Shown one piece after another: positions 7,406 through 45,705 of a stretch of DNA of 64,000 nucleotides (position 1 is its first letter; each line of letters begins with the position of its first letter). The notes beneath the pieces were generated by a model. It was not told where the DNA came from and did not search any database. It worked only from the letters and a program-made list of their open reading frames with translations. Position numbers and translations under genes: made by a program. This DNA comes from Gemmatirosa kalamazoonensis (GTDB lineage Bacteria; Gemmatimonadota; Gemmatimonadetes; Gemmatimonadales; Gemmatimonadaceae), in assembly GCF_000522985.1 (NCBI RefSeq), contig NZ_CP007129.1:186001-250000 (forward strand), read 5' to 3'.

Positions 7406-7573
7406 GAACCGCAGAGGGCCGCAGAGGGCCGCAGAGGACTGCCCCTTCCTTTTGAACCACAGAGGACACGGAGGTCACAGAGGAGAACCACTTCTTATTG
7501 GTTTCCTCCGTGTCCTCTGTGTCCTCTGTGGTTAAGAAAATAGTTGCCGTTCTCTGCGGCCCTCTGCGGTTCA
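7406..7573. repeat. inverted-array element, family A (copy 2)
   Basis: Same nested design as the copy at 1551: GAACCGCAGAGGGCC units outside, AACCACAGAGGACACGG units inside, then the inverse of each. It sits between two convergent genes (cupredoxin-like and serine hydrolase). The inner arm has CACGGAGGTCACAG where copy 1 has a second GGACACGGA, so unit number and sequence vary between copies. Confidence 0.9.
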
Positions 7574-7602
7574 CATACACGGCCGAAGTTCTCGAGGCGC
7601 GA

Positions 7603-11534: not shown

Positions 11535-11550
11535 GCGCGCCCTTTCAGGG

Positions 11551-11690
11551 CTCCACGTACGTGTTTCTGAAGGACTGAAGAGGGACTGAAGAGCGACTGA
11601 AGAAGGACCAACGACACGTTTTGTGTTTGGTCCCCCTTCAGTCCTCCTTCAGTCCTTCTTCAGTCCTACGAGCACACGTACGTCGAGTCC
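11551..11690. repeat. inverted-array element, family B (copy 1)
   Basis: A left arm starting CTCCACGTACGTG carries about four GGACTGAAG-type units and GAAGGACCAA. After a short loop, the right arm carries TTGGTCCCCCTTCAGTCC and further inverted units and ends ACGTACGTCGAG. It lies between the dienelactone hydrolase and PadR genes. Other copies start at 32281, 37829 and 45485. Confidence 0.92.
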
Positions 11691-11767
11691 AGGAGGCGCA
11701 CCACGTGCTCTTGCTTTCTAGAGGAGCGGCCCGCATGTTGGCTCTCGATTTCTACAGGAGAGCGCCA

Positions 11768-15976: not shown

Positions 15977-16092
15977 TACGTGGCTGCGTGGCTGCGTGGC
16001 TGCGTACCGGCCTAACGGTCACGCAGCCACGCAGCCACGCAGCCACGCAGCCACGCAGCCACGCAGCCACGCAGCCACGCAGCCACGCAGCT
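15977..16092. repeat. inverted-array element, family C (unequal arms)
   Basis: The left arm, 15977-16006, has about three GGCTGCGT units. The right arm, 16021-16092, has nine ACGCAGCC units, the last a variant. The 14-base loop contains CCTAACG, the heptamer common in this window. The right arm runs up to and overlaps the TAG stop of the DUF1080 gene. Confidence 0.92.
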
Positions 16093-16882
16093 ACTTCTTG
16101 ACCTCCATCTGCACGTCGAGCGGCCGGATCCAGATGTTGCGGAACGAGATCGGCGGGCTCGGATCGCCGTGGGCCTGGAGCTTGATCGGCGACGGGCCGT
16201 GCGGCGTGTACTTCGGCGGACCGATGTAGAGCGTGGGCCCCTTCAGCGCGACGTGGTCCTGGATGAGGATCCCGTTGTGGAACGCCGTGACGTACGCCGG
16301 CGTCGCCACCGAGCCGTCGCCACCGAACGTCGGCATCGTCCACACCACGTCGTACGTCTGCCACTCGCCGGGCGGCCGCATCGCGTTGACGAGCGGCGGG
16401 AACTGCTTGTAGATCGAGCCCGCCTGGCCGTTCACGTACGTGGTGTTGTTGTACGAGTCCAGGATCTGGAGCTCGTACCCCGCGTCGCCCGCGCCGATGG
16501 AGGCGAGGAACAGGCCGCTGTTGCCGCGCGCCTGGCCGCTGCCGGTGATCTCCGGCGGGATGCGCCACTCGAGGTGCAGCTGGTAGCTCCCGAAGCTGCG
16601 CTTCGTCTGGATGTTGCCCGCCTTCTTGTTCACGGTGAGCGCGCCGTTCGCCACGGTCCACTGCGCGGGCCCGCCGTCCATCGACGCCCACTCGTCGAGG
16701 TTGCGGCCGTCGAACAGCACGATCGCGTCCGACGGCGGCGCGGCCGGCGTGGGACTCCCCTTGCTCGGCGTCACGACGCGCGGCACCGGCGTCCACTGCT
16801 CGGTGTCCTCGGGGCGTTGGGCGGCGGCGGTGGCCGCGCCCAGCACGATCAGCGCGGAGAGGGTGACGCGGAGAGCACGCAT
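16091..16882 (-). CDS. secreted DUF1080 protein (3-keto-glycoside hydrolase family)
   Basis: A 263-residue secreted protein. I chose the ATG at 16882 because it starts a signal peptide (MRALRVTLSALIVLGAATAAAQ); the frame upstream only reads through a repeat. The DUF1080 jelly-roll core shows IVLFDGRNLDEWASMDG, GNIQTKRSFGSYQLHLEW, GNSGLFLAS, YELQILDSYNN and the final ISFRNIWIRPL. Members of this family hydrolyse 3-keto-disaccharides or 3-keto-glycosides. The adjacent GMC oxidoreductases, which can make 3-keto sugars, support that role here. It is transcribed divergently from them. Confidence 0.85.
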   Translation of the reverse strand: MRALRVTLSALIVLGAATAAAQRPEDTEQWTPVPRVVTPSKGSPTPAAPPSDAIVLFDGRNLDEWASMDGGPAQWTVANGALTVNKKAGNIQTKRSFGSYQLHLEWRIPPEITGSGQARGNSGLFLASIGAGDAGYELQILDSYNNTTYVNGQAGSIYKQFPPLVNAMRPPGEWQTYDVVWTMPTFGGDGSVATPAYVTAFHNGILIQDHVALKGPTLYIGPPKYTPHGPSPIKLQAHGDPSPPISFRNIWIRPLDVQMEVKK

Positions 16883-32267: not shown

Positions 32268-32280
32268 CGTGTGAGCCACG

Positions 32281-32427
32281 CACGACTCCACGTACGTGTT
32301 TCCGGAGGACTGAAGGAGGACTGAAGAGAGACTGAAGAAGGACCAAACACAAAAAGTGTTGTTGGTCCTTCTTCAGTCTCTCTTCAGTCCTCCTTCAGTC
32401 GTACAAGAACTCGTACGTGGAGTCGTG
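32281..32427. repeat. inverted-array element, family B (copy 2)
   Basis: The outermost 16 bases are perfectly inverted (CACGACTCCACGTACG at 32281-32296, its complement at 32412-32427). Inside are three GGACTGAAG-type units and GAAGGACCAA, then the inverse set. It lies between convergent genes (UbiB family and antiporter). Confidence 0.92.
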
Positions 32428-32441
32428 AACGGCGCGCCCGG

Positions 32442-34657: not shown

Positions 34658-34690
34658 GGTCGCAAAGTAAACGGGCCCGGTGCTCTGGTG

Positions 34691-34882
34691 TTGAACCGCA
34701 GAGGGCCGCAGAGGGGCGCAGAGGACTGCCTGTTTGTATTGAACCACAGAGGACACGGAGGAGAGCCACTTCTTGTTTGGCTTCCTCCGTGTCCTCTGTG
34801 TCCTCTGTGGTTAAGAAAGCCGTTGCCGTTCTCTGCGGCCCTCTGCGGCCCTCTGCGGCCCTCTGCGGCCCTCTGCGGTTCA
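34691..34882. repeat. inverted-array element, family A (copy 4)
   Basis: The left arm TTGAACCGCAGAGGGCC with two units is shorter than the right arm, which holds five CTCTGCGGCC units before GGTTCAA. The inner arms AACCACAGAGGACACGG and inverse are present. The right end supplies the TGA stop codon of the nucleosidase gene (reverse strand TTTTGAACCGC). Confidence 0.92.
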
Positions 34883-35644
34883 AAACGAAGCGCCGCCGCC
34901 GAGCATCCGCCGCAGGATCTCGTGCGAGTACGTGCTCGCCACCGCCTCGAGGAACGTCGTGAAGTCGACCGCGGCGTGGTCGCCGGCCGCGTCGGAGATC
35001 GTGCGCACGACGGCGAACGGGACCCCGTGCTCGACGCACACCTGCGCCACGGCGGCGCCCTCCATCTCCACGCATGTGGTCTCCGGGAGGTCGCGCCGCA
35101 GCTCGGCGCGCGCGGCGTCCGAGGCGAAGAAGCGGTCGCCGCTCGCCACGAGCCCCTCCACGACGCGCGGCGCCGACACGCCGACGGCCCGCAGCGCGGT
35201 GGCGACCGGCGTGTCCGGCGCGTTCGCCACCTCGGAGAGAAACGTGGCCGCCGCGTCGTGTACGGCCGCGCGCAGCGTCGGGTCGGCCTCGAGGTAGGTG
35301 CGGCCGAGCAGCGGGATCTCGTGGCGGGCGAACAGCGGGCGCGCGTCGAGATCGTGCTGCACGAGCCGCGTCGCGACGACGACGTCGCCCACGCGGAGCG
35401 TCGGATCCACGCCGCCCGCGACGCCGGTGAACAGCAGCAGCTCCGCTCCCAGCTCGCTCACGAGCGTCGTCGCCGTCATCGCGGAGGCGACCTTGCCCCA
35501 GTGCGAGAAGACGACGACCACGTCGTGCCCCCACAGCGTGCCGCGATGATACCGCCGGTTGCCGCGCGTGACGGTGCGCACGTCGCGCAGCGCGTCGACG
35601 AGGTGGCGGACTTCGTCGGGCATGGCGCCCATGATGGCGAGCAT
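34880..35644 (-). CDS. mtnN: 5'-methylthioadenosine/S-adenosylhomocysteine nucleosidase
   Basis: A 254-residue nucleosidase that cleaves MTA, SAH or 5'-deoxyadenosine to adenine and the thioribose sugar. I chose the ATG at 35644 (MLAIMGAMPDEVRHLVDALR), the family start; the frame upstream reads through a tandem array. It shows TGVAGGVDP, SGDRFFAS, the ribose- and base-binding CVEMEGAAVAQVC, and RTISDAAG with the catalytic Asp. Length fits the family. Its stop codon is formed by the end of a family A element. Confidence 0.92.
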   Translation of the reverse strand: MLAIMGAMPDEVRHLVDALRDVRTVTRGNRRYHRGTLWGHDVVVVFSHWGKVASAMTATTLVSELGAELLLFTGVAGGVDPTLRVGDVVVATRLVQHDLDARPLFARHEIPLLGRTYLEADPTLRAAVHDAAATFLSEVANAPDTPVATALRAVGVSAPRVVEGLVASGDRFFASDAARAELRRDLPETTCVEMEGAAVAQVCVEHGVPFAVVRTISDAAGDHAAVDFTTFLEAVASTYSHEILRRMLGGGASF

Positions 35645-35657
35645 GAAGGATGGGTGA

Positions 35658-35999
35658 GGCGGGACGGCTGACGGCGGGACGGCTGACGGCGGGACGCCCG
35701 ACGGCGCGACGCCCAACGGCGGGACGATGAACGGCGGGATGATGAACGGCGGGACGATGAACGGCGGGACGTCGAACGGCGGGCGCGGTCCCTAGGTACC
35801 AGGGGGGCTCCCCCCCCTTCGCCCAAGGTGCTATGTGCCAAACGCGATTCGGTACCAATCCGACGCCGACCGGATCCCTCCGAACGCACTACCAACCCCG
35901 CCGTCAGGCGTCCGCCGTGGGACGTCCCGCCGTTAGCCGTCCCGCCGTCAGCCGTCCCGCCGTCGATCGTCCCGCAGTACGACGTCCCGCCGTTCCTCA
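35658..35999. repeat. inverted array of 15-bp units (family I)
   Basis: The left array (35658-35783) has eight units of GGCGGGACGnnnnAC type, 15 bp each, plus a partial unit. The right array (about 35903-35995) has six inverted units (GTCnnnCGTCCCGCC). Both fill most of the 368-base divergent region between mtnN and the ABC exporter gene; the 120-base centre holds CAGGGGGGCTCCCCCCCC. Variation falls on the same three positions of the unit, so the copies are related but degenerate. Confidence 0.92.
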
Positions 36000-36012
36000 T
36001 AGAATATCCCCC

Positions 36013-37815
36013 GTGCTCCATCGTCTGCGCGAGCGCAACGAGTGGAAGTTCTTCGCCGCCCTCCCACACGCGGCCCCCGGCCTCACCGTCGCCTGGTGGG
36101 CCGGCCTCCTGCTGCGCGGCCTCCTCCCCGCCGCGTTCACCGTCGCGATCGGCGTCGTCACCGGGGCGGTGCAGCGCGGCGACCGACTCGCGCTCCCCCT
36201 CGCGCTCGCGGGCACGGTCTTCGTCCTCATGCAGGTCCTCACGCCGATCCACCAGGCGGTGAGCGCGACGCTCGGTGACCGCACCGCGGCGTGGCTCTAC
36301 GATCGGCTCACCGAGGCCTGCGTCCGGCCGCCGGGGATCGGGCACCTCGAGGACGCGCGGCTCGCCGGCGACCTCACGCTCGCGCGCGACTTCGATACGG
36401 GCATGACCGGGCCGCCGCTCAACATCTCCGTCGACTTCATCGCGCGCGGACTCGTCGACCTGATCGGCGGCGTCGCGTGCGCGGCGGTGCTCGCGGCGTT
36501 CGCGTGGTGGGCGCCGGTCGTCCTGGCCGGCGCGTGGCTCGCCACGCACTGGCTGCTGCGCGAGAGCGCCGTCTGGAAGGACCGCAACACGGAGCCCGTG
36601 CGCGCCGCCGAGCGCGATGCGGAGTACGCGTACCGGCTCGCCGTGCAGCCCGCGCCGGCGAAGGAGCTGCGGCTGTTCGGGCTCGCCGATTGGGTCATCG
36701 ACCGCTTCGTCGCGCGTCGCACCACGCTGCACGCGCTGCAGTACGAGGCGACGCGATTGCGCGAGCGGCCGCTCGCCTGGAGCCTGGCGCTCGTGTTAGG
36801 CGCGAACGTCGTCGTGTTCTGGGCCATCGCGCACGCGGCCAGCGACGGCGCGCTCACGCTCGGCCGCGCGGTGGCGTTCGCGTCGAGTGCGGTCGGCGTG
36901 TCGATGATCGCGTTCGGCGGATTGAACTGGGCGCTCGACGGCGCCGCCGCGCCCGTCGCCGCCGTCCTGCGCCTCGGGCCCGCGATGGAGCGGGGCGGCG
37001 CGCTGCGCGCCGGTACGCGCTCGGCCGCGGCGATGCCGGCGCGCGAGATCCGCTTTCGCGACGTCACGTTCGCGTACGACGATGACGCCCCGCCGGTGCT
37101 CGACCGGTTCGACCTCACGATCCCCGCCGGCACGTCGCTCGCCGTCGTCGGGCAGAACGGCGCCGGCAAGACGACGCTCGCGAAGCTGCTGTGCCGGCTG
37201 TACGACCCGCAGTCGGGCACGATCGAGATCGACGGCGTCGATCTGCGTGACCTCGAGGTCGCGGCGTGGCGCGCGCGGGTGACCGCGGTGTTCCAGGACT
37301 TCACGCGCTTCGAGCTGCCGCTGCGCGAGAACGTCGCTCCCGCCGGCGCTCCGGACGACGCCGTGCGCGGCGCGCTCGCCGCCGCCGGCGCCGACGGGCT
37401 CGCGTCGCTCGACACCGTGCTCGCGCGCGGCTACGAGGGGGGCACCGATCTCTCCGGCGGCCAGTGGCAGCGCGTGGCGCTCGCCCGCGCGCTGTGTGCC
37501 GTGCAGCTGGGCGCCGGCGTCGTGCTGCTCGACGAGCCGACCGCGCAGCTCGACGTGCGCGGCGAGTCGGAGATCTTCGACCGCGTGCTCGCGGCGACGC
37601 GCCACTGCACGACGATCCTCGTCTCGCACCGCTTCTCGACCGTGCGCCACGCCGACCGCATCTGCGTCGTGGAGGGCGGGCGCGTCGTGGAGCTCGGCAC
37701 GCACGACGAGCTGATGTCGCGCGGCGGGCGATATCGCACCATGTTCGAGCTGCAGGCGCAGCGCTTCGCCGCGGACGCCGACGAGGAAGGAGTCGCGTAC
37801 GACGTGCTCGCTTGA
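36013..37815 (+). CDS. ABC exporter half-transporter (TMD-NBD) 1
   Basis: A 600-residue half-transporter. I chose the GTG at 36013 (reading VLHRLRERNEWKFF); the frame further upstream only translates the 15-bp array. TM helices occupy about residues 20-330. The nucleotide-binding domain has Walker A GQNGAGKTT, signature LSGGQWQRVALARAL, Walker B VVLLDEPTAQLD and the H-loop LVSHRFSTVRHAD. It resembles peptide or lipid exporters. The next gene encodes a second half-transporter, so they may form a heterodimer. Confidence 0.87.
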   Translation: MLHRLRERNEWKFFAALPHAAPGLTVAWWAGLLLRGLLPAAFTVAIGVVTGAVQRGDRLALPLALAGTVFVLMQVLTPIHQAVSATLGDRTAAWLYDRLTEACVRPPGIGHLEDARLAGDLTLARDFDTGMTGPPLNISVDFIARGLVDLIGGVACAAVLAAFAWWAPVVLAGAWLATHWLLRESAVWKDRNTEPVRAAERDAEYAYRLAVQPAPAKELRLFGLADWVIDRFVARRTTLHALQYEATRLRERPLAWSLALVLGANVVVFWAIAHAASDGALTLGRAVAFASSAVGVSMIAFGGLNWALDGAAAPVAAVLRLGPAMERGGALRAGTRSAAAMPAREIRFRDVTFAYDDDAPPVLDRFDLTIPAGTSLAVVGQNGAGKTTLAKLLCRLYDPQSGTIEIDGVDLRDLEVAAWRARVTAVFQDFTRFELPLRENVAPAGAPDDAVRGALAAAGADGLASLDTVLARGYEGGTDLSGGQWQRVALARALCAVQLGAGVVLLDEPTAQLDVRGESEIFDRVLAATRHCTTILVSHRFSTVRHADRICVVEGGRVVELGTHDELMSRGGRYRTMFELQAQRFAADADEEGVAYDVLA

Positions 37816-37828
37816 CGTGGCGTGCACG

Positions 37829-37968
37829 GCTCCACGTACGAGTGTGTGTGGGACTGAAGGAGGACTGAAGGAGGACTGAAGAACGACCAAACACAACGTC
37901 GTTGTTGTCGTCCTTCTTCAGTCGCTCTTCAGTCCTCCTTCAGTCCGACAGAAACACGTACGTGAGCC
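37829..37968. repeat. inverted-array element, family B (copy 3)
   Basis: GCTCCACGTACGAGTG starts the left arm, followed by GGACTGAAG, AGGACTGAAG, GAGGACTGAAG units and GACCAAACACAAC. The right arm carries four inverted units and ends ACACGTACGTGAGC. It sits between two genes on the same strand, so it is not restricted to convergent gene ends. Confidence 0.92.
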
Positions 37969-45386: not shown

Positions 45387-45484
45387 GATGTCTCCTGGGC
45401 GGTGGGCCCACGGGGGGCCACTGGGCGGGGCGTGGGATCAGAATGCAGGCGGCGCTCCCGATGCGCCATGGTCTCGCCGGGCGG

Positions 45485-45620
45485 ACTCCACGTACGTGTT
45501 CGTGTGGGACTGAAGGAGGACTGAAGGAGGACTGAAGCAGGAGAACACCAACAAAGGTGTTGGTCCTGCTTCAGTCCTCCTTCAGTCCTTCTTCAGTCCT
45601 GCAGAAACTCATACGTGGAG
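45485..45620. repeat. inverted-array element, family B (copy 4)
   Basis: ACTCCACGTACGTG begins the left arm, then three GGACTGAAG-type units and GCAGGAGAACACCAA. The right arm carries TTGGTCCTGC, three inverted units and ends ACTCATACGTGGAG. It occupies much of the 319-base divergent region between the MocA gene and glpK; the rest holds no gene, only CCGCCTAACAGGAG with the glpK ribosome-binding site. Confidence 0.92.
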
Positions 45621-45705
45621 CCCTGGCGCTCCGCGCCACGCCGCGCGAACATAGCCGCCTCTCCGGGGCACGCGCCCCCGACTTCCCGCCTAACAGGAGC
45701 GACCG

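Follow-up and report, generated by a model that had tools for sequence, protein, structure and literature searches.

Dispersed facing arrays of a 15-bp unit in Gemmatirosa kalamazoonensis and their association with four-helix-bundle protein genes

Several described systems come close to the arrays reported here. REP sequences are short hairpins preceded by a GTAG/GGAG-type tag. For the four-helix-bundle proteins of the S23/IVP family, structures have been solved, and we know of neither a catalytic activity nor a function for them. In the available text on Coxiella, the 23S rRNA intervening sequence (IVS) is described as having tandem heptamers upstream of the S23 ORF, along with terminal inverted repeats (PMC4990558). 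Intergenic heptamers have been reported as GGGAATC in Xanthomonas and GGGGA(C/T)T in Nostoc, with 70 and 75 convergent pairs in Xanthomonas; the accessible portion of that report ties them to G-quadruplexes, and no mention of the four-helix-bundle family was found in it (PMC4692102). The TAACTGA repeats of Beggiatoaceae, as presented in the accessible text, also belong to the nearest literature (PMC4679880), and IVP genes in cas loci have been reported in a source whose available part gives no facing-array explanation for them (PMC3936711). In the open literature (most subscription papers and bioRxiv fall outside this scope), no report was found that joins S23/IVP proteins to dispersed facing arrays.

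The window, that is, the whole 64,000-nucleotide stretch of G. kalamazoonensis DNA that was analysed, is situated on a 1.1-Mb replicon and contains facing arrays of a 15-bp unit with the following features and neighbours (all gene calls were made with our own simple caller):

34880..35644, minus strand: neighbouring mtnN-like gene, phosphorylase superfamily (PF01048)
35658..35783, plus strand: left arm, eight 15-bp units GGCGGGACGNNNNAC and a partial unit, the G-rich strand pointing inward
35785..35886, minus strand: core common to 34 of 37 facing pairs, in reverse orientation in the window
35802-35824, minus strand: core motif GGGCGAAGGGGGGGGAGCCCCCC, within the window core
35851..35866, plus strand: core end GGTACCAATCCGACGC, a suspected promoter, pointing at the exporter
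35897..35993, minus strand: right arm, six inverted 15-bp units
36013..37815, plus strand: neighbouring ABC transporter gene (PF00005), an exporter

The first-pass annotation had described eight units opposed by six inverted units in a divergent region, and this was confirmed at 35658-35783 and 35897-35993; the span that it gave, 35658-36012, is right at its start but not at its end, as the arrays stop at 35993 and 36012 is the base preceding the called start of the exporter. The arrays fill the divergent gap between the mtnN-like gene and the exporter, with the arms 13 and 21 bases from the genes, and five of the six inverted units of the right arm are in strict phase, the innermost one being one base off (a 29-base step). 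The arms are separated by 113-139 bases, according to where the arm ends are set, and are 76-94% complementary in the listed registers. Folded as single-stranded RNA, 35658-35993 reached -219.4 kcal/mol, compared with -163.9 (sd 5.2) in 100 dinucleotide shuffles (z -10.6), none of which folded as well as the real sequence. The protein encoded by the mtnN-like gene had any match in only nine of 59 genomes, its own included, the others being partial at 29-39% identity; none of these was usable as an orthologue.

The same unit was dispersed in the genome. The two-unit pattern GGCGGGACGNNNNACGGCGGGACG occurred 118+103 times genome-wide, whereas its reversed control did not occur, and a BLAST search with the left arm gave at least 80 matches (40 of 317 candidates scored), which were grouped into 40 loci; a 41st locus came from the two-unit pattern search, and the 40 loci besides the window were retrieved. 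The earlier suggestion that the window array might be only another array element was therefore right, as 41 or more such loci are scattered over the genome. In 37 of the 41, a plus array was followed by a minus array as a facing pair, although the inclusion of L078 among these is doubtful, its left arm consisting of two weak units only. One core of about 100 bp, in either orientation, was shared by 34 of the 37 pairs; L067 and L070 had almost no centre, and L092 had a gene as its centre. Because a search with the core added four facing loci (L114, L126, L131, and L132), the figure of 41 loci is a minimum. In 58 further genomes from the same family and order, the unit pattern gave a single match (G030) and the G-run of the core one weak match (G046), so that within this sample the 15-bp array family appears close to private to the source genome.

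The first-pass observation that it is the same positions of the unit that vary in each copy was borne out in 311 interior in-phase units from the 41 loci, in which positions 10-13 varied. Positions 2, 4, 5, 6, 7, and 9 were 99.7-100% invariant, a range somewhat inflated because a unit was recognized by matching 9 or more of 11 fixed positions, interior units being counted by phase whatever their match; position 8 was C or T, and position 1 was mostly G or T. This position-specific invariance suggests that something recognizes the unit. The first-pass annotation had proposed binding by a repeated regulator, and invariance of this kind, together with an array that fills a divergent gap in the window, would be expected of an operator array, i.e., repeated sites for a regulator controlling mtnN and the exporter jointly. 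The family as a whole speaks against such an operator. At least 41 loci lie beside unrelated genes, and 13 were found in convergent, 25 in tandem, and three in divergent gaps, whereas the remaining 135 gaps at these loci that measured 80 bp or more comprised 19 convergent, 67 tandem, and 49 divergent ones. Divergent gaps were thus depleted (3/41 vs 49/135, p = 0.0002), and the divergent placement in the window is an exception, so that the family is unlikely to act as an operator. Moreover, of 51 adjoining gene ends, 41 had an arm no more than 15 bases away, compared with only five of 31 adjoining gene starts, arm length ranged from 2 to 29 units with both arms varying independently, and a shared core is unexplained by an operator. 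An operator serving mtnN and the exporter is accordingly very improbable, and the idea of protein binding is retained only in altered form, as recognition of the unit itself.

The same placement data bear on a second alternative, that the arrays are a host transcription terminator or mRNA-end structure, multiplied through usefulness. The closeness to gene ends, an enrichment in convergent gaps (13/41 vs 19/135, p = 0.019), and the very stable RNA fold would all be expected of such a structure; however, identical placement would result if insertions were tolerated only there, and near-identical unlinked copies together with a gene-bearing copy require spread, beyond mere use. As the whole explanation, a terminator is unlikely, and terminator-like host use is compatible with element spread as well as with genes settling in ready-made arrays. 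One of the 41 loci was called inside a gene.

Evidence for spread came from the cores. Aligned over about 104 columns, three pairs of cores from unlinked sites (L064 is chromosomal, and L099 belongs to the 1.04-Mb replicon) showed 99, 98, and 96% identity, whereas the 780-bp flanks of near-identical pairs reached only background scores (12.5-17, compared with 100.5-136.5 for the cores). Near-identical cores at unlinked sites with unrelated flanks indicate that the element has spread. In the aligned pairs, the units adjoining the core were mostly shared and the outer units differed, and the arms therefore change fast. Agreement of the tetramer at the free positions was 0.66 between neighbouring units, 0.55 within an arm, 0.30 across arms, and 0.35 between elements; since tetramers are alike within but not across arms, each arm grows by its own slippage. 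Arm-to-arm copying (quasi-palindrome correction) was considered and rejected on the same values, the tetramers agreeing within arms (0.55-0.66) and not across them (0.30). Agreement in tetramer order within elements, counted from the inner end, was slightly above chance in one of four shuffle comparisons (p = 0.026).

Locus L075 (G000:C2 1375549-1375983) has an arm of 29 units, 27 consecutive ones of which carry the identical tetramer CCTG; this run is a recent expansion and could serve as a strain marker. Local homogenization of tetramers, as in L075, is what plain microsatellite expansion with an independent origin at each site would produce, but the 41 unlinked loci have a unit and a core in common, their facing pairs share a single polarity, and near-identical cores occur within unrelated flanks; this explanation, under which the same core would have had to originate again and again, is scarcely credible.

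With regard to the core, 64 copies were present in the retrieved loci, 35 flanked on each side by two or more units, 12 with fewer or one-sided units, and 17 with essentially none. Eleven array-less copies adjoin a left-hand gene that starts at the core; in nine of them, the GGTACC core end lay 30-49 bases upstream of the start codon. The core could represent a promoter module of the host that arrays have captured; a hexamer comparison upstream of 152 genes showed no clear -10 motif. For the mtnN-like gene and the exporter, the divergent region is occupied by an element copy, so the promoters of both genes would lie in the core or arms, or would have been displaced. The RNAalifold consensus of the core RNA was weak (-14.8 kcal/mol), and a structured-RNA core is not claimed, as changes opposite the invariant AAGG were, by eye, uncompensated. 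The window contained no Rfam family at the gathering threshold, and at a relaxed threshold the only matches in eight loci were sub-threshold ones of microRNA type and a single one of CRISPR-repeat type, all of them outside the elements. In addition, the interior was about 150 bases longer in L089, L091, L115, L130, L135, and L136, in which a long inner hairpin (GCGGATCAGCGGATTCGCGAATCCGC type) precedes the core. Four cores were called inside open genes (L118, L121, L116, and, with a minus-strand core, L122); these would be coding-sequence insertions or gene-caller errors.

The copy with a gene as its centre was located as follows:

G000:C2, about 4973200-4973870 (locus 4970700-4975900): gene-bearing copy L092 (its gene in L142), with the same 15-bp unit

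In this copy, nine plus units precede a centre of 462 bp and five minus units follow it; the centre encodes a protein that matched both PF05635 ('23S rRNA-intervening sequence protein') and TIGR02436 ('four helix bundle protein'), with 2GSC (XCC0516) and 2RLD as solved relatives. A TIGR02436 gene is thus enclosed by a copy of the same unit family, while the window copy contains no S23/IVP protein gene. The source genome harbored nine TIGR02436-type genes, eight of which were, by eye, enclosed by facing tandem arrays, and the unit differed from gene to gene (GGGCAGGA, GAGCGTGG, a mixed G-rich unit, the 15-bp unit, a GATGCGGCGGCGCT-like unit, CGGGACT, a degenerate unit, and GTGGCTGC). The ninth gene, L146, had complete arrays nearby and none enclosing it. 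Weak bAvd/Avd matches were found for two of the nine proteins.

The association was scored by aligning up to 300 bp upstream of each gene to the reverse complement of the 300 bp downstream, with a threshold score of at least 18, in loci that were the best-scoring ones of each search and no random draw. Seven of the nine genes in the source genome passed (the eighth, L147, being facing by eye), compared with none of nine stretches about 1 kb off and two of 218 control genes of the same genome. Within the family, 95 of 118 genomes, counting the source genome, contained TIGR02436 matches, and among 30 retrieved loci the threshold was reached at 20 of 27, as against 0/25 distant stretches. A scan of a genome collection, in which the best 80 of 88 relatives from many phyla were retained, gave 27 of 76 loci and 0/66 distant stretches; with 500-bp flanks and a score of at least 20, true flanks of this broad set passed in 21/78 cases and mispaired ones in 6/464. 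When twelve cyanobacterial plasmid loci (12 of 17 matches) were included, 125 of 131 loci had enough flank and six were dropped; flanks were facing in 61 of the 125 and direct in five, and the upstream arm was G-rich in 59 of the 61 facing loci. The remaining 64 loci fell below the facing threshold, many of them with degenerate heptamer arrays by eye. Across phyla, there is a strong association between four-helix-bundle genes and short tandem arrays that face each other with a consistent polarity. The array periods beside these genes were mostly 7, followed by 14, 8, and 15, and the 15-bp unit fits a 7+8 composition.

The cyanobacterial plasmid genes were sited between nrdB and nrdA (L273), cas6 and cas4 (L275), and cas10 and cmr3 (L283), an arrangement that resembles insertion into operons; the facing test was passed by L273 and L275, and L283, at 14.5, was below threshold. 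Four-helix-bundle genes lying between CRISPR-cas genes, as in L275 and L283, may explain the reports of cas-linked IVP genes.

On this evidence, we consider it probable (roughly 0.7) that the window feature is a gene-less copy of a class of elements made of four-helix-bundle genes and facing arrays, working like REP/RAYT, with a role for the protein that we infer. Such an element would consist of facing arrays of a family-specific short unit, with the G-rich strand inward, around a replaceable interior, which in the 15-bp family is usually the core of about 100 bp and in L092 an IVP/S23 four-helix-bundle gene. The four-helix-bundle protein would recognize its cognate unit, either at the DNA level or within the extended RNA hairpin that the arms can form, and would thereby drive the spread of the element, the gene-bearing copy presumably supporting the gene-less copies in trans, as is thought for RAYT and REP. 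The copying step itself may be carried out by host replication or repair. Arms would grow and shrink by slippage, each separately, and copies would be retained mostly downstream of stop codons; the window copy, in its divergent gap, is a minority case.

The causation might instead run in reverse, in that facing arrays arise and spread in some other way and only provide a place where four-helix-bundle genes, and the core, settle or survive. The same core was found between 15-bp arrays and, in L067, between 8-bp arrays, so interiors and arrays are exchangeable, which speaks for such settling, as does the occurrence in the window of 10- and 11-bp families without a gene-bearing copy among the nine genes. 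However, random insertion into arrays predicts direct flanks as often as facing ones, in contrast to the 61 facing and five direct observed, and the cyanobacterial plasmid genes lie inside operons with only short arrays. Reverse causation thus appears quite unlikely.

Facing arrays of other units were also found in the window:

1555-1735, 7407-7575, 34688-34886: nested facing arrays, the outer of a 10-bp unit CCGCAGAGGG, the inner of CCACAGAGGACACGGAGG and its inverse
11539-11699, 32268-32440, 37833-37964, 45483-45623: facing 11-bp arrays GGACTGAAGGA with a 5-22 base centre
15979-16112: facing 8-bp arrays GTGGCTGC/CACGCAGC, a unit that also encloses gene L147 and the core copy in L067
60608-60690, 61679-61750: facing 7-bp arrays CGGGACT/AGTCCCG, gene-less, inside a stretch called coding

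The unit CGGGACT, which surrounds gene L144, had 217+177 three-unit matches in the genome, at no fewer than 34 places among the matches listed. In the 11-bp GGACTGAAGGA family, the outer part was conserved (CACGTACGTG-like). Neither the 10-bp CCGCAGAGGG nor the 11-bp GGACTGAAGGA unit matched any array of the nine four-helix-bundle genes of the genome. In a comparison of 20 relatives, which covered contig starts only, the ten with 8-11 genes had four inward facing pairs (and two of opposite polarity) in 631 kb and the ten with 0-1 genes had none in 743 kb (Mann-Whitney p = 0.017, uncorrected for kinship), weakly suggesting that gene number tracks gene-less pairs. None of the four inward pairs enclosed a match to the nine proteins. 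The same detector found six inward pairs in the 64-kb window, compared with the four in 631 kb of relatives, and the source genome is thus unusually rich. Separately, the 7-mer GTTAGGC occurred at 56 places in the window on both strands, with 1.9 expected from dinucleotide shuffles (largest 7); it is a highly iterated word, which we take to resemble attC core sites or HIP1-like words.

More broadly, there may exist a bacteria-wide class of mobile elements that encode no recognizable transposase, recombinase, reverse transcriptase, or HUH nuclease and in which an S23-family four-helix-bundle protein recognizes family-specific, G-inward facing arrays and host replication or repair copies them into tens to hundreds of gene-less copies; this is a tentative extension, with the odds somewhat against it. 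If true, it would account together for the intervening sequences in 23S rRNA, for the heptamer repeats known from Xanthomonas and cyanobacteria, and for the IVP genes that occur as strays among cas genes. Intergenic heptamer arrays in several phyla had no explained source, and the association ties them to the S23/IVP family; the array family gains a candidate partner protein, so that both questions, about the arrays and about the protein, become testable by binding and mobility assays.

Among known systems, REP/RAYT (REPtrons, REPINs) resembles the present element in having, according to the available text, a single-copy gene with cognate dispersed palindromes in intergenic gaps (PMC8266576). 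The likeness of a gene with dispersed palindromic cognates to a REPtron raises the alternative of a REPIN/RAYT system with unusual REP sequences. The protein, however, is here a four-helix bundle and in REP/RAYT an HUH transposase, no PF01797 (RAYT) match was found in the genome (the control matched in 5 of 14 genomes), and many-unit arrays, here of 15 bp, replace single, tagged short hairpins, which gives this alternative a negligible probability. Nor did the genome yield a match to PF00078 (RVT_1, reverse transcriptase), for which the control matched in 3 of 14 genomes; with neither family matched, neither a REPtron nor an Avd-type retro route is available via those families. Avd of diversity-generating retroelements has a related four-helix-bundle fold, as described in the portion of the source available (PMC10053308), and differs in that the genome here lacks an RVT_1 match. 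Foldback/Galileo elements of Drosophila likewise have long inverted ends of internal tandem repeats and a variable middle, but are eukaryotic and rely on a P-type transposase, whereas no transposase lies between the arms here.

The Xanthomonas and Nostoc heptamers are, like the units of the present arrays, short, G-rich, and intergenic in the accessible account (PMC4692102), and similar units of the GGGAATA/GGGAGTC type flank four-helix-bundle genes; the unit in the window differs in being 15 bp long, although 7 is the commonest period beside four-helix-bundle genes. The 23S rRNA IVS with an S23/IVP ORF shares, in the available text, the PF05635 protein family, complementary stem-forming ends, and tandem heptamers before the ORF (PMC4990558). 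By its RNA fold, the window copy has the long stem ends of such intervening sequences, but it sits between two protein genes, outside rRNA, and it is in one sister copy, L092, that the S23/IVP gene is present; some intervening sequences likewise lack such a gene. Compared with the IVS as described in that text (PMC4990558), the element reported here is intergenic, has dozens of gene-less copies, and carries long arrays in both arms.
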